Assembly: GCF_020252395.1 (NCBI RefSeq)
Contig: NZ_JADCDB010000002.1
Coordinates: 248,001 to 312,000 of the forward strand
Reading direction: 5' to 3'
Length of the DNA stretch: 64,000 nucleotides
Source: Aestuariivirga sp.
GTDB lineage: Bacteria > Pseudomonadota > Alphaproteobacteria > Rhizobiales > Aestuariivirgaceae
Shown: piece after piece, positions 8,444 through 19,858 of the stretch
How positions within the stretch are numbered: position 1 is the first letter of the stretch
Layout of the letters: each line of letters starts with the position of its first letter
Program-made: the position numbers and the translations under genes
Notes under the pieces: generated by a model
What the model was told of the DNA's origin: nothing
The model's database searches: none
What the model saw: the letters and a program-made list of their open reading frames with translations, nothing else

Positions 8444-8713
8444 TCAGCGCGCGCCAATCGGCCGCGCTGGCGGTTTGTATCGCACGCAGTCTCTGCAATC
8501 AAATACCTGCCCCATCTGCTCCACCCATGGCAGATAGGTGGCTTCGATGAGCTCGTTCGCCGACACCGACGGCGGGTCGCGCGAAATCACCAACCGCTCG
8601 AGCACAACAGGTGACAGGTAGGCCAGCCGCAGCATGCGGCTGACGAAGCGGTCGGTAACTTTCTCGGCCTCGGCAATGTCATGGATCATTGTGGCCTCAA
8701 CAGACTTGAGCAC
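8444..8713 (-). pseudogene. Truncated copy of the recombinase-partner gene
   Basis: About 205 bp (8508-8712) align with 10883-11090 at roughly four-fifths identity. They preserve the reading IHDIAEAEKVTDRFVSRMLRLAYLSPVVLERLVISRDPPSVS. The N-terminal third and the final residues of the intact 133-residue relative are lost. An open frame of 100 codons survives, but its ends are unrelated sequence. It lies in the same orientation as the intact copy, so the two bracket the phoX-like gene. It is read as a remnant of an earlier recombinase cassette. Confidence 0.7.
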
Positions 8714-8813
8714 ACGCCGCTTATGCAAGCAAAATGAGCTACGCACGGCTCGAAGAACCGAGTTATTTTTGCGTCATTCGGTTGCCCGCCAATGCGTCAC
8801 ATGCCTTGCCGGA

Positions 8814-10855: not shown

Positions 10856-11257
10856 TTAGCGGGCTGAATTCCGATCCTCAAACACCCGCCTCATCTGCTC
10901 CGACCAAGGCAGATTGACCGCCTCGATGAGCTCGTTCATCGACACCGACGGCGGGTCGCGCGAGATGACCAACCGCTCCAGCACGTCCGGCGACAGGTAG
11001 GCCAGCCGCACCATGCGGCTGACGAAGCGGTCGGTGAATCCTTCGGCCTTCGCGATCTCGTGGATCGTTGCAGCCTCACCGGCTTCGAGCCGCCGCCGCC
11101 ACGCCCAGGCGCGGCCCAGCGCTTTGAGGATGTGCGGATCCTGACTGCGGGACTGGAAATGCGTCCCCGGCTCCGGTGGCAAGATACGCGGCCGGCCATT
11201 CTGCCGCCGCTGCGTCAGCTGGATGAACACGCGGGTGGTGTCGTTCGCTTGCGTCAT
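10856..11257 (-). CDS. Serine-recombinase partner protein with helix-turn-helix
   Basis: 133 residues. The N-terminus is basic (QLTQRRQNGRPRI). The middle and C-terminus hold a probable HTH (AATIHEIAKAEGFTDRFVSRMVRLAYLSPDVLERL). It overlaps the recombinase stop by 4 nt (ATGA), which indicates translational coupling. Proteins of this kind regularly follow such recombinases in alphaproteobacteria and may act in DNA binding or directionality, but no activity is established here. A truncated copy lies at 8444-8713. Confidence 0.7.
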   Translation of the reverse strand: MTQANDTTRVFIQLTQRRQNGRPRILPPEPGTHFQSRSQDPHILKALGRAWAWRRRLEAGEAATIHEIAKAEGFTDRFVSRMVRLAYLSPDVLERLVISRDPPSVSMNELIEAVNLPWSEQMRRVFEDRNSAR

Positions 11258-12573
11258 TCAGCAGCCTCCAGATGTACGATTTCGCCGATTTCTCGAACCA
11301 GCGTTGCAATGCCGTTATTTCGAAGATCGACCGCCATGCCGCTCGGCCCGACTGTGACCCTGTCGACCAGCAGCCGCACTATCCGGGTCTGCTCGGCCGG
11401 ATAGAGCGCGTCCCAAAGGTCATTGAATCGCTGGAGCGCAGCAACGATTGCCCGCTCGTCCATCGGCCCGCCGTCGCGGCGCTGCGACTCGATCACTCGC
11501 GCAGCAATCTCCGGTGCACCGATGATCCGTCGCATCTCAGTAATTACCGCGCCATCGACCATGGCGGCTGCAAGTCGCATGGGGCCATCCCCGCCGCGCG
11601 CGTCGCGATTTCTGATCAGGTCCATTGATGTGTAGTAATGGTAAAGGCGCTCGCCTTTCCGCGTGTAGGTAGGCGTCATGGCGGCACCGGTGTCGGTGAA
11701 GATGATGCCCTTAAGCAGCGCCTCTGAGCTATTGCGGTTCTTGGCGCGCCGCTCGCGCGGACTTTCCTTCAGGATTGCATGAACGCGGTCCCAGAGTTCC
11801 TGCGTAATGATGGCGTCGTGCTCGCCGGGATAGGACGTTCCCTTGTGCACCGCCTCGCCCAGATAGACGCGACTGTTGATCAGTTTGTAGATGAAGCCCT
11901 TGTCGATCCGCTTGCCACGCTTGTTGCGCACATCCTCTGCTTGCAGTGCGCGCGCCAAAGTCGACGCAGAGCCAAGGGCGGCGAAGCGCTCGAAAATCAT
12001 CCGCACCGTTACTGCCTCGGCTTCATTGACCACCAGCTTGCGGTCCTTGACGTCGTAACCCATCGGCACGAAGCCCCCCATCCACATGCCACGCTTGCGC
12101 GAGGCCGCGAACTTGTCGCGGATGCGCTCGCCGATCACCTCGCGCTCAAACTGCGCGAAGCTCAGAAGGATGTTGAGCGTCAGCCGTCCCATCGATGTGG
12201 TGGTGTTGAAGGACTGCGTGACCGACACGAAGGTGACGTTGTTGCGGTCGAACACCTCGACCAGCTTCGCGAAATCCATCAGTGAGCGCGACAGACGGTC
12301 GATTTTGTAGACGACGATGACGTCGATGAGCCCCGCCTCGATGTCGGCGATCAACCGTTTCAGTGCGGGGCGTTCCAACGTACCGCCGGAGAAGCCGCCA
12401 TCATCATAGCGGTCGCGGATGGCGACCCAGCCCTCCGCCTTCTGACTGGCGACATAGGCCTCGCAGGCCTCGCGCTGTGCCTCAAGGGAGTTGAACTCCA
12501 TGTCGAGGCCTTCCTCGGAAGACTTGCGGGTGTAGATGGCGCAGCGGGAGCGCTTGAGAGTGGTGCCGGCCAT
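11254..12573 (-). CDS. Large serine recombinase
   Basis: 439 residues. The start at 12573 overlaps the previous stop (TGATG). The N-terminal resolvase domain has the YxRxS nucleophile (YTRKSS, Ser18), FNSLEAQREAC, IVVYKIDRLSRS and FAQFEREVIGERIRDK. A recombinase domain follows (about 160-270, LARALQAEDVRNKRGKRIDKGFIYKLINSRVYLGE), then a helical C-terminus. The usual zinc-ribbon cysteines are absent (TDTGAAMTPTYTRKGERLYHYYTS), a feature of this subfamily. It catalyses site-specific DNA strand exchange, and it is the only recombinase visible that could have moved the neighbouring island or prophage. Confidence 0.93.
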   Translation of the reverse strand: MAGTTLKRSRCAIYTRKSSEEGLDMEFNSLEAQREACEAYVASQKAEGWVAIRDRYDDGGFSGGTLERPALKRLIADIEAGLIDVIVVYKIDRLSRSLMDFAKLVEVFDRNNVTFVSVTQSFNTTTSMGRLTLNILLSFAQFEREVIGERIRDKFAASRKRGMWMGGFVPMGYDVKDRKLVVNEAEAVTVRMIFERFAALGSASTLARALQAEDVRNKRGKRIDKGFIYKLINSRVYLGEAVHKGTSYPGEHDAIITQELWDRVHAILKESPRERRAKNRNSSEALLKGIIFTDTGAAMTPTYTRKGERLYHYYTSMDLIRNRDARGGDGPMRLAAAMVDGAVITEMRRIIGAPEIAARVIESQRRDGGPMDERAIVAALQRFNDLWDALYPAEQTRIVRLLVDRVTVGPSGMAVDLRNNGIATLVREIGEIVHLEAAE

Positions 12574-13079
12574 CAGCCCTTCCTCCCCGTACCGAGTGCA
12601 AAGAACCTGAAGCCGTTCCAACTCGTGCCGGTGATGGCCTTGGCGACGGCTGACAGCGATTTGAATTTCTTGCCCGCGAGGTCGTAGCCGTCGTGAAGGA
12701 CGGTGACGGTGTGTTCGGTGCCATTCCATTCCCGCACGAGCTTCGTACCCGGCAGCGGGTTGCGGGCGTCATCGGCCATGCCCTTGCGCGTGACCTTGCC
12801 TTCGACCTCATCGGCCAACAGGTCCAGCGCGCGGCGGGTGTCGCGGGTGAGCCCCCCATAAGTCAGCTCCTGGATTCGTCCCGCGATCCGTACCTCCAGA
12901 AACGCGCGGCTGTTGTTGGGCGCCGCCGTGGCGAAGAGGTCCTCCCACTTCACCTTGAGCTCGTTCACCGACAGGCGCTGCAGGGCCGCCAGCTGGGCCA
13001 GCACAGTACCGTCCGTCTTGGGATCTTCCCCGGCGCGCGGGAGCGCCTGGGGTTTGGGTTTCGTCGCGGTCTTCATCAT
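12573..13079 (-). CDS. DUF2924 protein of the recombinase cassette
   Basis: 168 residues from ATG 13079 (GGAGGGTG just upstream; ATG 13076 equally possible). It matches DUF2924 in layout: a helical first half (LAALQRLSVNELKVKWEDLF...SRAFLEVRIAGRIQELTYGGL) and a small beta-rich C-terminal domain (GTKLVREWNGTEHTVTVLHDGY...SLSAVAKAITGTSWNGFRFF). The latter resembles the DNA-interacting domain found with phage and plasmid recombinases. It sits between the small upstream gene and the recombinase with TGATG overlaps on both sides, so all four genes form one unit. Confidence 0.85.
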   Translation of the reverse strand: MMKTATKPKPQALPRAGEDPKTDGTVLAQLAALQRLSVNELKVKWEDLFATAAPNNSRAFLEVRIAGRIQELTYGGLTRDTRRALDLLADEVEGKVTRKGMADDARNPLPGTKLVREWNGTEHTVTVLHDGYDLAGKKFKSLSAVAKAITGTSWNGFRFFALGTGRKG

Positions 13080-13300
13080 CACCCTCCAACTCGGTTGCGA
13101 AGTTTGCGACGGTGAGCACCGCTCTTCAGGGGCGAGAAGTCGACCAAACTGTCTCGGGCTGCCGCAGATAAAGTGCTGGACTGTTCGGGCAGGATGCGTC
13201 GCAGGCCGGCGCTCAGAATCTGCACCAGTTCATCGAGGCGCTCGGGCGGCGTCATGCGTTCCGGCGGCGTCCAGTTCGGGGCTATGGGGCTGGTGCTCAT
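13079..13300 (-). CDS. Small first gene of the recombinase cassette
   Basis: 73 residues, unknown function. ATG at 13300; an in-frame TTG lies 3 nt upstream. It is proline-rich at the start (NWTPPERMTPPERLDELVQILSAGLRRIL) and basic at the end (KSGAHRRKLRNRVGG). Its stop overlaps the DUF2924 start by TGATG. Short proteins with the PPERLDE signature commonly head this cassette in alphaproteobacteria. Confidence 0.65.
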   Translation of the reverse strand: MSTSPIAPNWTPPERMTPPERLDELVQILSAGLRRILPEQSSTLSAAARDSLVDFSPLKSGAHRRKLRNRVGG

Positions 13301-13620
13301 CAAGACTGTTCGCGATTGAGGTTGATGAGCAAGAGATGCAGCTCAAAGTCGACAAACACAAGCATTTTCAATAACTTGCGAAAATGAAGCAAGCCTGAGG
13401 AAACGCTGGGAAATCCTGCGGTGTGGACAAGTTCAGGTCTGCTGGGGATTTCCACGCGGTTTGACCTCCGAGACTTCCGAATCGGGCTCGTCTGGGACTA
13501 CACGCACCGCCCCACTGAAAGATGTGGAAGGGGCATTGTTCAGTGTTCCCCATATTGAAAGTTCTTGTTATGTTCCAACAGAAGATTCCCAACCCACCCC
13601 CGCCTGAGAAAGGACCTTGA
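13301..13620. other. Intergenic regulatory region between recombinase cassette and orphan operon
   Basis: 320 bp without a convincing gene, AT-richer than its surroundings. It must contain divergent promoters for the cassette and for the plus-strand orphan pair, and it holds the GTTC-N7-GTTC site described separately. An AAAGGACCT ribosome-binding region precedes the ATG at 13621. Confidence 0.6.
13561..13575 (+). promoter_or_regulatory. LexA/SOS box (GTTC-N7-GTTC)
   Basis: GTTCTTGTTATGTTC is a perfect match to GTTC-N7-GTTC, the direct-repeat LexA operator of alphaproteobacteria. It lies 46 bp upstream of the ATG at 13621. A -35-like TTGAAA (13555-13560) directly abuts it, so bound LexA would cover the promoter spacer; the -10 is not obvious. 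It implies that the following two-gene unit is induced by DNA damage. Confidence 0.65.
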
Positions 13621-14832
13621 ATGGCACCAATCACTTCGTTTTTCTGGAAGACCCCGGTGCCAAGCCTAAAGGCTTATCTTGCCACCAAGCCGTTTACGTT
13701 GCCCGCGACGGTCACTTGGACCGGTGCCGACAGCGATGTTGTCGAGACACTGATCGCGGCGTTGGACACCCTGTCCGAGGCGGATCGCGAGACGCTGATC
13801 CTTGAGATCGCCCGCATGATGGCGCTTGCTGACGAACCTGGTCAGAACGCGTTGCTGGCTGTTGTCAGCAACCGCGTCATGTTCGACGCGGTTGAAGGTG
13901 GACACAATCGCGCGCTTTGGGTCCTCATGAATGAGCACGCGAATTTCCAGCTGGCCGAAGACGTCCGCTATAATGACGAGAAACGCCGCGGTCGGATGTG
14001 GCAGGGCTTCGTGGTTGAAAAACACAAACTGGTTCGCAAGGATCGGTTTTCGCGCGATGCGTTCACGGTCGAGATCCAGCGGAAGTTCAGCACCAACCAT
14101 GTGCATGTCGATGTCTTTGATCGGAATCGCGTGACGTTCGACGGCAAGAGCCACCAGCTTGTTCAAGTCGCCGTCTACCGTGAGGGCCGCCCAGACGATA
14201 CCCTTGGCTTTGACGGCGCAGGCAAGCTGCAACGGCACCTTGTGAAGCCGGTCTATGAAGCCTCGCTCACTTATGAGCCCAGCGAGGGCGTCATTGAGGT
14301 TGTGGCCGGCGACAAGGACGTTCGGGTAGCCATGGCAAGCATGATGGGCCGGACGCTTATGGACATCGAGTTCAAGGGCGAGATTTTGCCTGCGCGGGAA
14401 TATGACCTCGGTATCCTGATGGAGCCTTTCGACTTCCCGACCGATGCCCGAGCTCCGGCTGATCAGGTGGTCGAAAAGGTCCAAGTTCGCGAGCTTCGCT
14501 TCAAGCCACTGGATCGGAATGGCCAGCGCGTCACGCTGGAATGTGATGGATCGGGTGGTGACACCATCTGGGACATGGCCGATAGACACATCGATCCGGC
14601 TGCGCAGCGGCGTGCCGACTGGGTGATCACGCGGGCGCGTCTTGTCGTCAAATTTGCGCCTCATGGCAAATCGCGCCGCGCCCGGAGCCTGAACTTGACG
14701 ATCACTGTACCGCACGGCTGCAATCTGAAAGGCATGACACCGCCCGAACGGCTTGTCGGCGAAAAATATCTCCGGGATTGGGGCATCCTGAAGGGCAAAC
14801 CGGAGGCGATCGATGGCGCTGAACGCTCATAA
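13621..14832 (+). CDS. Orphan protein A of an SOS-box-controlled gene pair
   Basis: 403 residues; no family recognised. The first ~110 residues are helical and acidic (DTLSEADRETLILEIARMMALADEPGQNALLAVV) and read like a helical repeat. The middle is beta-rich with basic patches (RKFSTNHVHVDVFDRNRVTFDG, HLVKPVYEASLTYEPSEGVIEVVAG). The C-terminus ends in another basic strand-rich region (RARLVVKFAPHGKSRRARSLNLTITVPHGCNLKGM). There is no signal peptide, membrane segment, Walker motif or nuclease signature. Its 3' end overlaps the next gene by 20 nt. Candidate roles (defence, damage response, phage induction) are inference. Confidence 0.8.
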   Translation: MAPITSFFWKTPVPSLKAYLATKPFTLPATVTWTGADSDVVETLIAALDTLSEADRETLILEIARMMALADEPGQNALLAVVSNRVMFDAVEGGHNRALWVLMNEHANFQLAEDVRYNDEKRRGRMWQGFVVEKHKLVRKDRFSRDAFTVEIQRKFSTNHVHVDVFDRNRVTFDGKSHQLVQVAVYREGRPDDTLGFDGAGKLQRHLVKPVYEASLTYEPSEGVIEVVAGDKDVRVAMASMMGRTLMDIEFKGEILPAREYDLGILMEPFDFPTDARAPADQVVEKVQVRELRFKPLDRNGQRVTLECDGSGGDTIWDMADRHIDPAAQRRADWVITRARLVVKFAPHGKSRRARSLNLTITVPHGCNLKGMTPPERLVGEKYLRDWGILKGKPEAIDGAERS

Positions 14833-15748
14833 GGGAGCCGTCGATCTCCTCCTGAAGATCCTGGAGACGAGGTCAGCCAGGATGACGGGCTCGGTCATGA
14901 GGGCCAGTTTCGGTGAAGCATCCACCATTCTGATGGAGTCCGGCCTCCTGCTGAACGTCGGACGAGCGGAAACGGTCGCTTCCATGGACGATTTCGAGGA
15001 TGAGCCAACGCGCGTGGAATGGTCGGCGGAACAGGGATCTATTGGATACTATGCCAACAACGGCCGTTGGGTTGAAGTGTCTGCCGAGGAACTTGCCATT
15101 TACGGTGTGGCCATGCCGACGTTCCTCACTCAGCTTCTGGTCAGGTGCGAGCGCATTGCGGAAGGCGGCAAAGAGCCCCTCGTTCCCGATGTCGTCTGGG
15201 ACCTTGGTACCGTATGGCTGCACGGCCGCGGCAAGCCGGTTTCCGTGTGGTTCGCTCGCAGGCTTTCTGATACCCGACACCGTGGCGCGCTTGAGAACAT
15301 GGCGGCCCGACGCCCGCCTGCGGATCTGCGGGTTGTGATGACGCCGACGGCAGACTGCCCGAACCTAGATTTAATAGGTCATGTCCTGGTTTCACTGCGT
15401 GACGTTCTAGAGGCGCCCGACCGCATTGTCGTCGAACCGGCCATACTGGCGAAACGGCTGAAGCAGGTCCCAACTTCGTTATTGAAGCCGATCCAGCATT
15501 CGCCGGACTACGGCATGATTTACATCGGCGAAGAGAGTTACCCGTTCCGAGGCCCGCAACACCGCGCGATCCTCAAAATCCTCGTCGACGCCTACAACGA
15601 CAACGACCCCGTCCGGCTGACGGCGGACATCCTCGAGGAGATCAAACCTGGCCCCAAGGTCACGAACCTTGCGCGCGCCTTCAGCGGCAACAGGCACTGG
15701 CAAAAGTTCATCAAGGAGGAAGCCGGGCAATGCTGGATTGAGATTTGA
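14813..15748 (+). CDS. Orphan protein B with C-terminal winged-helix-like domain
   Basis: 311 residues. It overlaps protein A by 20 nt, so the two are translationally coupled. The N-terminus (about 1-110) looks like an HTH-bearing helical region (LLLKILETRSARMTGSVMRASFGEASTILMESGLL). The middle is a mixed domain with SVWFARRL and LDLIGHVLVSLRDVLE. The last ~75 residues (YPFRGPQHRAILKILVDAYNDNDPVRLTADILEEI...NRHWQKFIKEEAGQCWIEI) look like a winged helix. No catalytic residues stand out. The pair probably works as a complex. The gene ends just before an intrinsic terminator. Confidence 0.78.
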   Translation: MALNAHKGAVDLLLKILETRSARMTGSVMRASFGEASTILMESGLLLNVGRAETVASMDDFEDEPTRVEWSAEQGSIGYYANNGRWVEVSAEELAIYGVAMPTFLTQLLVRCERIAEGGKEPLVPDVVWDLGTVWLHGRGKPVSVWFARRLSDTRHRGALENMAARRPPADLRVVMTPTADCPNLDLIGHVLVSLRDVLEAPDRIVVEPAILAKRLKQVPTSLLKPIQHSPDYGMIYIGEESYPFRGPQHRAILKILVDAYNDNDPVRLTADILEEIKPGPKVTNLARAFSGNRHWQKFIKEEAGQCWIEI

Positions 15749-15770
15749 TGCCCTCCTCAACCTGACCATG

Positions 15771-15795
15771 AAGCCGCCTCTGGGCGGTTTTCTTT
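15771..15795 (+). terminator. Intrinsic terminator closing the orphan pair
   Basis: Stem AAGCCGCC / GGCGGTTT (one G-T pair) with a short TCTG loop, followed by TTCTTTATT. It separates the SOS-box operon from the prophage early operon, so the two units are transcribed independently. Confidence 0.85.
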
Positions 15796-15805
15796 ATTGT
15801 CGTCG

Positions 15806-15859
15806 CTCTCCTTCCGTTTCCCCTTCCTTCCACCTTCCCGTCCCCTTCCACCCCCTCCT
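15806..15859 (+). other. Polypyrimidine tract upstream of prophage early operon
   Basis: 54 nt with only four purines (15816, 15832, 15840, 15850). It lies between the terminator and the first early gene, where the early promoter would be expected. No good -35/-10 pair is visible in the 108-bp gap. Confidence 0.6.
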
Positions 15860-15903
15860 GCAAGGTCCCCGTCACGGTTGCTCACAAACCGATGGAGACC
15901 TGA

Positions 15904-16125
15904 ATGACTACGAGGCATTTGAACCAGACCGAGCTTGCTGCTCGCTGGACGATATCGCCCCGCACTTTGGAGCGGTGGCGGTTCACGGGTGAAGGCCCGC
16001 AATTCATCAAGATTGGCGGTCGCGTGGCGTACCGCCTCGGAGACGTCGAAGCCTATGAAGCGGAGCAGATCCGCCAGGTCACGCCTGGCGTGCGCCGCGG
16101 CCCCAATAGCGGGGAAGCGGCATGA
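15904..16125 (+). CDS. AlpA/excisionase-like helix-turn-helix protein
   Basis: 73 residues. It is a MerR-like winged HTH of the excisionase group: LNQTELAARWTISPRTLERWRFTGEGPQFIKIGGRVAYRLGDVEAYE, the arrangement used by AlpA, Xis and phage regulators. It is the first gene of the early operon and overlaps the next by 4 nt (ATGA). It could regulate early transcription or act as a recombination directionality factor for the serine recombinase; the sequence does not decide. Confidence 0.8.
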   Translation: MTTRHLNQTELAARWTISPRTLERWRFTGEGPQFIKIGGRVAYRLGDVEAYEAEQIRQVTPGVRRGPNSGEAA

Positions 16126-16607
16126 CCATCCTCAATCACATCACTCTAGAGGCGCTCCCGCGTCTGCCGATTGCCGAGATCGTCGCTCTGCCTGCGGGGG
16201 AACTCGCCCGCCTGCAGAGGGAAGCGGACGATGCCCTGCGCAAGGCCAAGTTCACCGTCACCTGGCTCGACAGCGCCCTCACCCAGAAATACGCCGACCG
16301 CGCCCGGCAGGCACGTGCCGAGGGCGAGAAGGACAATGGCACTGTCCGCTTCGAGGATGATGGCGTCACAGTCGTTGCCGATCTTCCCAAGAAGGTCGAA
16401 TGGGACCAGCGTGACCTCGCCGATCTGGTCGAACGCATCAAGGCCGAGGGCGAAGACCCGCGCGACTATGTCGAGGTCAGCCTCAAGGTCTCGGAGCGCA
16501 AGTACGGCTCCTGGCCCACGCACATCCGCTCGCTTTTCGAGCCGGCACGTACGGTTCGCGCCGGCAAGGAGACGTTCGAGCTGCTCGTCGAGCAGGAGGG
16601 CGTGTGA
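16122..16607 (+). CDS. Phage early protein of unknown function
   Basis: 161 residues, helical and charged in the first half (LARLQREADDALRKAKFTVTWLDSALTQKYADRARQARAEGEKD). The second half contains VVADLPKKVEWDQRDLADLVERIKAEGEDPRDYVEVSLKVSERKYGSWP and ends in ELLVEQEGV. Proteins of this type sit immediately upstream of Sak4-like ATPases in alphaproteobacterial prophages. No enzymatic motif is visible. It overlaps both neighbours. Confidence 0.75.
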   Translation: MTILNHITLEALPRLPIAEIVALPAGELARLQREADDALRKAKFTVTWLDSALTQKYADRARQARAEGEKDNGTVRFEDDGVTVVADLPKKVEWDQRDLADLVERIKAEGEDPRDYVEVSLKVSERKYGSWPTHIRSLFEPARTVRAGKETFELLVEQEGV

Positions 16608-17488
16608 TGCCACTCCCCATCATTCTCGCCGATCAGCGCCTGGCTGAACGCCGTGGCATCAAGGCTGCCATCTTCGGCAAATCGGGCATCGGCAAGACCA
16701 GCCTGCTCTGGACGCTGCCGCCGGACACGACGCTGTTCTATGACCTCGAAGCGGGCGATCTCGCCATTGAGGGCTGGAGCGGCGACACGATCCGCCCGCG
16801 CACCTGGGACGAGTGCCGCGACTTCGCGGTGTTCATCGGCGGCGCCAATCCCGCCATCCCTGATGGCCGTCCCTATAGCCAGCGTCACTTCAACGAGGCC
16901 TGCGCCAAGTTCGGTGATCCGCGCGCACTCGACAAGTACGCCACGATCTTCGTCGACTCGATCACAGTCGCGGGCCGCCTCTGCTTCCAGTGGGCCAAGG
17001 AGCAGCCGGAGGCTTTCTCCGAGAAGACCGGCAAGCCCGATGTGCGGGGCGCCTACGGCCTGCATGGCCGTGAGATGATCGGCTGGATCACGCATCTTCA
17101 GCACACGCGGGCGAAGGACGTTTTCTTCGTCGGCATCCTCGACGAGAAGCTCGACGACTTCAATCGCAAGGTCTTCGTGCCGCAGATCGACGGCGCCAAG
17201 ACCGGGCTCGAATTGCCGGGCATCGTCGATGAAGTGCTGACGATGACGGAATTGGCTGACGCCGCAAACCAGCTGCACCGGGTCTTTGTCTGCCGGACGC
17301 TGAACCCCTGGAACTATCCCGCCAAGGATCGTTCCGGCCGGCTCGACCTCGTCGAGGAAGCCCACCTCGGCCGCCTCATCGCCAAGATCGGCGAGCCCGG
17401 CCGCTCCCCTCTCGAACGCCTCACTTTCAGCCGCCCGGCGCCTGTCGTCCCGGAGGCCGACACCGCTCACCCCCAGTCCAAGCTCTGA
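16607..17488 (+). CDS. RecA-fold ATPase, Sak4-like phage recombinase
   Basis: 293 residues. The start at ATG 16607 has AGGAGG 7 nt upstream and overlaps the previous stop (TGATG). Walker A is GKSGIGKT (24-31). A Walker-B-like ATIFVDSITV follows at about 113, with a short helical region GLHGREMIGWITHLQH and PGIVDEVLTM. The compact RecA-like core matches phage Sak4-type single-strand-annealing ATPases. The next gene encodes a likely ssDNA-binding protein, the usual partner. Assignment is by motif and neighbourhood. Confidence 0.75.
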   Translation: MPLPIILADQRLAERRGIKAAIFGKSGIGKTSLLWTLPPDTTLFYDLEAGDLAIEGWSGDTIRPRTWDECRDFAVFIGGANPAIPDGRPYSQRHFNEACAKFGDPRALDKYATIFVDSITVAGRLCFQWAKEQPEAFSEKTGKPDVRGAYGLHGREMIGWITHLQHTRAKDVFFVGILDEKLDDFNRKVFVPQIDGAKTGLELPGIVDEVLTMTELADAANQLHRVFVCRTLNPWNYPAKDRSGRLDLVEEAHLGRLIAKIGEPGRSPLERLTFSRPAPVVPEADTAHPQSKL

Positions 17489-18175: not shown

Positions 18176-19858
18176 ATGCTGCTTCGTCCCCGTCAGAAGA
18201 TCTTTGTTGAGCGCAGCCTGTCTGCGCTCAACACCCGCCGCAACACGCTGGGCGTCGCTCCGACGGCGGCCGGCAAGACGATCATGCTCTCGGCCGTTGC
18301 CGGCGAGGTAGTGCGCGGAACCGAGGCCAAGGCCTGTGTCCTCGCCCACCGGGATGAACTGACCGATCAGAACCGGACGAAGTTCGGCCGCGTCAATCCG
18401 GGAGTCACCACGTCTGTCGTCGACGCGAATGCAAAGTCCTGGGATGGCCAGGTGACGTTCGCCATGGCACCGACCCTGTCACGCGCCTCGAACCTTGTCG
18501 ACATGCCGGCGCTTGATCTCCTGGTCATTGATGAGGCGCACCACGCGGTTGCTGACAGCTACCGGCGCATCATCGATCACACCTTGCAGCGGAACCCGTC
18601 TGCAAAGATCTTCGGTGTCACCGCCACACCGAACCGGGGCGACAAACAGGGCCTGCGCGAGGTCTTCGACAATGTCGCGGACCAGATCCGCATCGCCGAG
18701 CTGATCGCGTCCGGCCACCTCGTGCCCCCGCGCACCTTCGTCATTGATGTCGGTGTGCAGGATGCCCTGAAGAAGGTGCGCCGTGTCGCGGCCGATTTCG
18801 ACATGGGCGAGGTCGACGCGATCATGAACAAGTCGCCCGTTACCGATGCGGTGATCGCCAACTGGAAGGAGAAGGCCGCCGGCCGCCAGACGGTCGTGTT
18901 CTGCTCCACGGTCGATCATGCACGCAACGTGGCGGACGCCTTCAAGGCCGCCGGTGTCTCCGCCGCGCTCGTCCATGGCGAGATGGGCGATGCCGACCGC
19001 AAGGCGACGCTCGCTGCCTATGACAAAGGTGAGATCCAGGTCATCGCCAATGTTGCGGTGCTGACCGAGGGCTGGGACCATCCGCCCACCTCCTGCGTTG
19101 TGCTACTCCGGCCGTCTTCCTACAAGTCCACCATGATCCAGATGGTCGGGCGGGGCCTGCGGACCGTGAATGCGGAAGAATACCCCGGCGTGATCAAGAC
19201 CGACTGCGTCATCCTAGACTTTGGCACCTCGAGCCTCATCCACGGTTCGCTTGAGCAGGATGTCGATCTGGACGGGCGGCAGGCGACAGGGGAGGCGCCC
19301 ACCAAGTGCTGCCCCTCCTGTGAGGCGGAGGTTCCCGCCGCCGTGATGGAATGCCCGCTCTGCGGCCATGTCTGGGAAAGCGAGCGCGATGCAGGCGACC
19401 CGGAAGCGCTCGGCCACTTCGTGATGACGGAGATCGACCTTCTGGCGCGCTCCAGCTTCGCCTGGGTCGACATCAACGGGGACGGTTCTGTCATGATGGC
19501 TGCCGGCTTCACCGCTTGGGCTGGGGTCTTCCATGAGGACGGACGCTGTTATGCGGTGGGCGGCGCCAGGAACAAGCCCTCCGCCCTGCTGGGAGTGGGC
19601 GAAAGCATCGTCTGCCTCGCAGCCGCCGATGACTGGCTCAACAACAATGAGACGGACGAGTCGGCGCACAAGACCAAAGCCTGGCTGCGCCAGCCGCCGA
19701 CCGAGCGGCAGTTCGCCTTCCTGCCTCCCACCTGTCGGATGGACTACAGCCTGACCCGCTACCAGGCCTCGGCCATGCTGAGCCTCAAGTTCAACCTTGC
19801 CGCCATTCGTGCCCGGATCAGCGAGGCCAAGGGCGCCCGGTTCGCGGTGGCCGCGTGA
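18176..19858 (+). CDS. Phage DEAD/DEAH-box helicase with zinc ribbon
   Basis: 560 residues, superfamily 2. Motif I is APTAAGKT (28-35), motif II LLVIDEAHHAV (~118), motif III-like FGVTATPNR, and the helicase-C region contains TVVFCSTVDHARNVADAF, VLTEGWDHPPTSCVVLLRP and MIQMVGRGLR (motif VI). A four-Cys zinc ribbon CCPSC...ECPLCG lies at about 378-395. The C-terminal ~170 residues are phage-specific. It unwinds DNA during phage replication or recombination. It begins 10 bp after the SSB-like gene. Confidence 0.92.
   Translation: MLLRPRQKIFVERSLSALNTRRNTLGVAPTAAGKTIMLSAVAGEVVRGTEAKACVLAHRDELTDQNRTKFGRVNPGVTTSVVDANAKSWDGQVTFAMAPTLSRASNLVDMPALDLLVIDEAHHAVADSYRRIIDHTLQRNPSAKIFGVTATPNRGDKQGLREVFDNVADQIRIAELIASGHLVPPRTFVIDVGVQDALKKVRRVAADFDMGEVDAIMNKSPVTDAVIANWKEKAAGRQTVVFCSTVDHARNVADAFKAAGVSAALVHGEMGDADRKATLAAYDKGEIQVIANVAVLTEGWDHPPTSCVVLLRPSSYKSTMIQMVGRGLRTVNAEEYPGVIKTDCVILDFGTSSLIHGSLEQDVDLDGRQATGEAPTKCCPSCEAEVPAAVMECPLCGHVWESERDAGDPEALGHFVMTEIDLLARSSFAWVDINGDGSVMMAAGFTAWAGVFHEDGRCYAVGGARNKPSALLGVGESIVCLAAADDWLNNNETDESAHKTKAWLRQPPTERQFAFLPPTCRMDYSLTRYQASAMLSLKFNLAAIRARISEAKGARFAVAA

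Follow-up and report, generated by a model that had tools for sequence, protein, structure and literature searches.

The window analyzed here is a 64,000-nucleotide stretch of Aestuariivirga sp. (contig NZ_JADCDB010000002.1, positions 248,001 to 312,000 of the forward strand), and its subject is a pair of genes, here called A and B, that lie on the + strand behind a candidate operator of the type bound by the SOS repressor LexA. The original prediction, made from the sequence alone, had described two genes of 403 and 311 residues with a 20-nt overlap, and the open reading frames (ORFs) at 13621-14832 and 14813-15748 agree with that description. The pair and its control elements are arranged as follows.

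13561..13575, + strand: LexA-type operator GTTCTTGTTATGTTC (GTTC-N7-GTTC), 45 nt 5' of the start of A
13621..14832, + strand: protein A, 403 aa; predicted model with an N-terminal helical domain (~residues 1-121) and an RdgC/CENP-N-L-like fold (~residues 119-399)
14813..15748, + strand: protein B, 311 aa, overlapping A by 20 nt
15476..15745, + strand: residues 222-311 of B, an OmpR/PhoB-type winged-helix domain in the predicted model
15770..15791, + strand: intrinsic-terminator-like hairpin and T run, 3' of B
15810..15849, + strand: array of four CCTTCC direct repeats spaced 12, 11 and 11 bp, the proposed binding site of B (A-B)
15861..15866, + strand: -10-like hexamer CAAGGT, 11 nt past the last repeat, a proposed activator-dependent early promoter
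15904..16125, + strand: first early gene, HTH_17 excisionase/regulator-like, 73 aa (Pfam HTH_17 slightly below the cut-off; phrog_66 E 3e-8)

Further genes lie on both sides of this unit.

11254..12729, - strand: serine recombinase, divergent from A-B
12573..13082, - strand: DUF2924 protein, part of the recombinase cassette
16604..17488, + strand: Sak4-like recombination protein, early gene
18176..19858, + strand: DEAD/ResIII helicase, early gene

Downstream of the early genes follow those for a terminase, portal, major head protein, tail sheath and tape measure, which together mark the element as a tailed prophage. The pair had been described as isolated from the recombinase cassette and the prophage early genes; judged by gene order, it instead belongs to the prophage and occupies its control slot, with the recombinase cassette on one side and the early genes on the other. 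The terminator reported 3' of B was recovered as the hairpin and T run at 15770-15791. Its weight comes from similar hairpins seen by eye at the same place in relatives (L001, L060, L064, L065, L105, L132, L146, L159 and L012) and not from the hairpin scan, which returned one hairpin against a shuffle mean of 2.6; no equivalent was seen by eye in L071, L086 and L114. By eye, a large part of the small gene at 10856-11257, which follows the serine recombinase, recurs in the ORF at 8444-8746; the latter resembles a remnant of an earlier integration.

Relatives of A numbered 214 in IMG/VR, where 27 fused AB loci were found, and 139 in bacterial genomes; the loci used were the best 80 of 214, the best 80 of 116 and the best 80 of 139 in the respective searches. 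Each set of loci with the same sequence in the first 601 nt of A entered the counts as one, and L002 along with L005-L010 were left out as copies of other loci; raw counts still include near-identical copies. Within the range searched, a recombinase cassette upstream and early genes downstream were found in 107 of 182 loci, many of the others ending too soon. Of 148 split loci, 145 have B following A (L277, L316 and L320 are without B, two of them at a contig end), and in 33 loci A and B form one protein of 730-817 aa, one of which is truncated to 494. This natural fusion implies that A and B work together.

Among the best 80 bacterial relatives, most titles name alphaproteobacterial genera, as judged by eye, and L249, L250 and L255 are metagenome-assembled genomes labelled as other than alphaproteobacterial. 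The claim that neither protein belongs to a recognized family stood for B and not for A: A matches phage family phrog_37634 (function unknown; E 6e-65), which was matched in six of 297 genomes of the order, the window's included, and in none of eight other genomes of its genus, whereas neither A nor B had a usable match in Pfam, NCBIfam, PADLOC or PDB sequences. Searches with tblastn gave no match for A or B in phage records and, in plasmids, one match for A (L011) and none for B. At this plasmid locus (CP013100.1, L011 9989-14670) the A-B pair lies outside the usual phage slot and is followed by genes that resemble, by eye, those for multi-ubiquitin, JAB peptidase and E1-like proteins. In one fused-AB phage, the product of an early gene just downstream contains sigma-70 region 4 (L014 11457-12176; Pfam E 1e-6).

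The perfect GTTC-N7-GTTC operator that had been noticed upstream of A is present at 13561-13575 and is conserved in relatives. In L001 and L002 the 15-mer is identical while the flanking sequence drifts, L060, L062 and L064 carry spacer variants, and the consensus of the window clade is GTTCTTG[TG]T[AC]TGTTC at about -60. The operator of the fused clade reads GAAC-N7-GAAC and is found, with varying spacers, at -93 to -104 in 24 of 27 loci (L222, L225 and L234 lack it), so that a survey upstream of homologues, as had been proposed, finds the box kept in two divergent clades (A ~22% identical), in opposite orientation and with variable spacers. Although the bare motif is barely over chance genome-wide, with 93 matches against 81 for the reversed control, the operator was accepted as real because of this conservation, and the comparison indicates that the box is under selection. 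Similar boxes with T/A-rich spacers adjoin genes named by eye as recA, ssb and imuA in the host genome. A second prophage of the same genome (L321/L058; L321 11639-13928, contig C20) encodes a distant A (E 2e-7) and a B recognized by its place and by eye, with a GTTC-N7-GTTC box of its own, GTTCTTGCTACGTTC. In L058 and L221 the box falls inside the longest ORF (+90 and +92; another measure gives -103 for L221), and the true start was therefore taken as further in.

Two other elements considered upstream of A were dropped. L001 and L002 do not keep the -35-like TTGAAA said to abut the operator, and scanning 13480-15960 for sigma-70 promoters gave none (0.9 in shuffles), with no -35/-10 pair before A. 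The gammaproteobacterial LexA motif, CTGT-N8-ACAG, had two matches in 93 loci, both from one shared sequence, at -207 and -344. Elsewhere in the host genome, on contig C46, a further gene resembling a serine recombinase has GTTCACGCTATGTTC (L055 1254-1286) upstream, ending 17 nt short of its longest ORF, and is possibly an SOS-controlled recombinase.

The distribution of the box among the relatives was compared with that of phage repressor genes, for which XRE-type repressors, M78-type proteases and CI/S24 repressors were detected by similarity to five representatives, with Pfam on a few. With starts defined by hidden Markov model, the box was found in 28 of 32 fused loci, in six of the 12 split loci where no XRE/M78 gene was visible and in one of the 132 loci in which A adjoins a gene for a phage XRE repressor, an M78 protease or both. 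The six box-bearing split loci all belong to the window's clade, and the six boxless ones are plasmid locus L011 and five having less than 0.5 kb of upstream sequence. Control motifs over the same 176 loci gave no match when reversed, none with N6 and five with N8, three of them in the XRE/M78 set; for the fused loci the corresponding numbers were zero, zero and two. Across all 182 distinct loci, 131 had XRE/M78 only, 35 the box only, one both (L105) and four neither, and 11 had too little flank; XRE and M78 genes were both seen in 123 of the 132 loci having either. Since the box and the XRE/M78 genes rarely co-occur, host LexA and the phage switch look like near-exclusive alternatives upstream of one gene pair. 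On a tree of 62 rows (quick method, root unknown) box status needs six changes, and the window clade (five LexA rows, 100*) falls within a starred clade of 16 rows that also includes 10 XRE/M78 rows and L105. The latter locus has its box, GTTCCTCTTTTGTTC, ~161 nt before A in addition to the XRE/M78 genes, and is possibly an intermediate of the switch swap.

A third lineage carries a CI-like HTH_3 + S24 repressor opposite a protein of 229-279 aa whose C-terminus matches B, without A. When 50 loci with enough flank were anchored on Sak4, the slot held A and B in 16, fused AB in four, the B-like protein in 14 (13 of them with CI/S24) and something else in 16, eight of which were inspected and have other genes there. 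The LexA, XRE/M78 and CI/S24 types are all damage-responsive, and their occurrence at the same slot suggests that three repressor types control related regulators in one place. A search of the window for S24, M78 and HTH_3 had no match at E <= 1 (other repressor types were not searched), so that LexA may be the main repressor of lysogeny here.

The winged-helix-like end attributed to B was borne out by structural comparison of the predicted model, in which residues 222-311 form an OmpR/PhoB-type winged helix. The rest of the protein is less readily assigned: B has no Pfam match, including to a receiver domain, and the structural matches that span residues 100-311 do so at a root-mean-square deviation of 11-16. 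Matches starting at residues 1-4 indicate that a second winged helix may lie near the N-terminus.

A candidate target for such a domain lies between the terminator of B and the HTH_17 gene, where CCTTCC recurs at 15810, 15822, 15833 and 15844. This is the only run of at least three CTTCC at 10-13 bp spacing on either strand of the window. Periodicity was examined in 57 split and 13 B-like loci that passed a similarity filter. The split loci gave z 12.3 at 12 bp and 7.1 at 11 bp, the next peaks being 5.5 at 20, 5.1 at 16 and 4.5 at 6 (30 shuffles), and the B-like loci, in which the repeat differs (ATCCC), gave z 8.0 at 11 bp and next 5.1 at 6. In the fused phages, GTCTAAC repeats occur at the end of AB in 20 loci, with z 6.7 at 33, 5.3 at 12, 3.7 at 11 and 3.5 at 22, and also 4.4 at 15 and 4.3 at 18. 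A reading of the C/T-rich tract as a Rho site was dropped in favor of the periodic array.

With a fixed set of repeat cores, at least three repeats were found in 56 of 165 distinct regions upstream of the HTH_17-type gene. Spacing to a -10-like element could be scored in 49 of these 56, the tails of the other seven being shortened by the assigned ORF start, and in all 49 the hexamer [CG]A[TA]NNT begins exactly 11 nt past the last core; of 26 columns, only those of its A and T are invariant. The window's own row is outside this count; its spacing (CCTTCC, 11 nt, CAAGGT) was read from the sequence. A scan for a -35/-10 pair at the early-gene element found none. PhoB binds 11-bp direct repeats (the Pho box), and direct repeats of about 11 bp, as expected for a target of an OmpR/PhoB-type domain, are thus present at the candidate promoter at the level of sequence. 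The array and hexamer look like an activator-dependent promoter of the Pho-box type. Just 5' of the ribosome site of the HTH_17 gene lies a short inverted repeat, CGGTT...AACCG (15875-15891), and relatives carry, by eye, a similar GGTTTTCG...AAACC element before this gene, possibly a hairpin of the 5' untranslated region.

Direct-repeat arrays also adjoin replication genes, and the same data could be taken to describe a replication-initiation or partition pair, with the array as an origin or centromere-like site and the SOS response timing replication only. Plasmid initiators have two winged helices, as B may, and A resembles CENP-N/CENP-L. The fixed spacing of the hexamer from the array in 49 of 49 loci is explained by a promoter and not by an origin, however, the unit lacks an NTPase partner, and a spacing of 11-12 bp suits OmpR/PhoB boxes more than typical iterons, which makes this alternative unlikely. 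RepE/RepA-type initiators were not among the 50 VIA matches listed for B, which is no proof of absence. Somewhat less probable again is that A-B restrains the phage, with B holding down the early genes as an SOS-induced repressor or a brake of the Cro kind. Winged helices can repress, and the array does sit at a promoter-like site, but such a brake would appear just as lytic growth is called for and be missing during lysogeny; the early promoter has no -35 that could be found, which fits an activator, and in phages of the L137/L181 type the B-like protein stands opposite a CI/S24 repressor.

Protein A is predicted to adopt a fold of the RdgC / CENP-N-CENP-L (Chl4-Iml3) group, the model resembling both RdgC and the fold shared by CENP-N and CENP-L. 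Membership of the RdgC family by sequence was rejected: A has no Pfam match to RdgC (PF04381), and hhalign against 28 RdgC sequences gave a probability of 0.3. PF04381 also had no match in the host genome, and profile comparison of A and B against the PDB returned nothing significant. According to PMC11077077, lambda RexA shares the RdgC / CENP-N-CENP-L fold and stabilizes the lytic state of the lambda switch; RexA itself was not among the structural matches listed for A.

The fold and the SOS-type operator would also suit a recombination or repair module in which A modulates RecA after damage and B is autoregulatory, and E. coli RdgC is described as lowering RecA activity and LexA cleavage (PMC11077077). 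Such a role is improbable given the position in the control slot of a phage, seen in at least 107 of 182 loci, the alternation with phage XRE/M78 control and the missing sequence relation of A to RdgC. Least probable of all is a RexAB-like phage-exclusion or altruistic defence unit, although A resembles RdgC, whose fold RexA shares, and the plasmid copy L011 adjoins genes that look, by eye, like a ubiquitin-like system. RexAB-type defence was not taken as first choice since B is predicted to be a globular winged-helix protein and not a membrane protein like RexB, PADLOC gave no match, and the expression context differs: in lysogens the cI promoter drives rexAB (PMC11077077), while A-B lies behind a LexA box or next to XRE/M78 genes.

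Altogether, these observations suggest that A-B is probably an activator of the lytic early genes, and hence a trigger of prophage induction, that is repressed by host LexA and released by the SOS response. The comparative basis consists of the gene pair, the conservation of the operator, the linkage and fusion of A and B, the array, the spacing of the -10-like element and the alternation with XRE/M78, and both folds come from predicted models; from these we infer LexA repression, DNA binding, activation and the role of A. In the lysogen, host LexA on GTTCTTGTTATGTTC would keep A-B off. DNA damage would remove LexA, and A and B would be made together. B would then bind, through its winged helix, the CCTTCC array that follows the terminator of its gene, much as PhoB binds 11-bp repeats. 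Array-bound B would bring RNA polymerase to the -10-like element 11 nt past the last repeat, and the early genes (those for the HTH_17 protein, Sak4, the helicase and an AAA_25 protein) would be turned on. A would act with B, probably gripping DNA beside the array and stabilizing the lytic state. Among the roles offered in the original prediction, the damage-inducible trigger of prophage induction draws support from the conserved operator, from the XRE/M78 switch that relatives have instead and from the array with its -10-like element, and the winged helix was likewise sustained. The position of the pair in a slot for phage control, under a type of repressor that responds to damage, makes a role in defence or repair less likely.

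More tentatively, and with rather less confidence than in the activator role itself, we propose that a group of alphaproteobacterial prophages shares one lytic activator, in which a subunit of the RdgC/RexA/CENP-N fold serves as DNA clamp and a PhoB-like winged-helix subunit works on a tandem 11-12-bp array, and that at least two of its lineages discarded their own damage-sensing repressor and protease, leaving the choice of lysogeny to host LexA. These prophages would amount to a natural experiment in the rewiring of phage switches, in which one activator pair seems to retain its target array and promoter spacing while the sensor of damage changes, being host LexA in some phages and a phage XRE/M78 pair in others; phages having the B-like protein carry a CI/S24 repressor. 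The proposal would assign a function to phrog_37634, predict that the host SOS repressor is what mainly keeps this prophage dormant and place the RdgC/RexA/CENP-N fold in a transcription switch. In the open-licence literature searched, no paper was found that names the A-B pair, nor was the combination of these parts with an exchange of LexA for XRE/M78 upstream of one activator pair.

Several known systems share single features with this unit. ICEBs1 ImmR-ImmA and Deinococcus DdrO-IrrE are switches of an XRE-type repressor and an M78-type protease, and most A-B relatives lie beside genes of these two types; the window and fused clades differ in having a LexA-type box in place of those genes. 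Coliphage 186 Tum is a LexA-controlled antirepressor, and A-B would resemble it as a LexA-repressed phage gene whose product triggers induction, but Tum acts against phage CI, and a search of this window for S24, M78 and HTH_3 genes found none. B shares with OmpR/PhoB proteins the predicted fold of residues 222-311 and the 11-12 bp direct repeats just upstream of a -10-like element; it differs in its N-terminal part, in which no receiver domain was recognized, and in its linkage to A. The predicted fold of A likens it to RdgC, CENP-N-CENP-L and RexA, from which it is set apart by an extra N-terminal helical domain, a winged-helix partner and the lack of detectable RdgC sequence similarity. A also lies behind an SOS-type operator, whereas RexA is co-expressed with the repressor (PMC11077077), and no repressor gene of the types searched lies in or beside the A-B operon.

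The statement that no known system has this architecture is consistent with a pair that lacks a named family, yet it holds only in part, as the proteins resemble known folds and LexA-held lysogeny has been described in Bacillus phage GIL01 (PMC6182141). LexA-held lysogeny, switch proteins with the RexA fold and PhoB-like repeats are each already known. As recounted in PMC6182141, GIL01 lysogeny is held by host LexA without a dedicated phage repressor, and a phage DNA-binding protein activates lytic transcription from a site overlapping the -35. The A-B prophage would be alike in its proposed lysogeny by host LexA, followed by a phage activator and lytic transcription, and a conserved LexA operator at the phage control operon is present here as well. 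The components differ: in GIL01, gp7 is a LexA co-repressor and gp6 a LexA homologue that activates late genes, whereas the unit described here combines a predicted RdgC-like protein with an OmpR/PhoB-like winged helix that would be aimed at the early genes.

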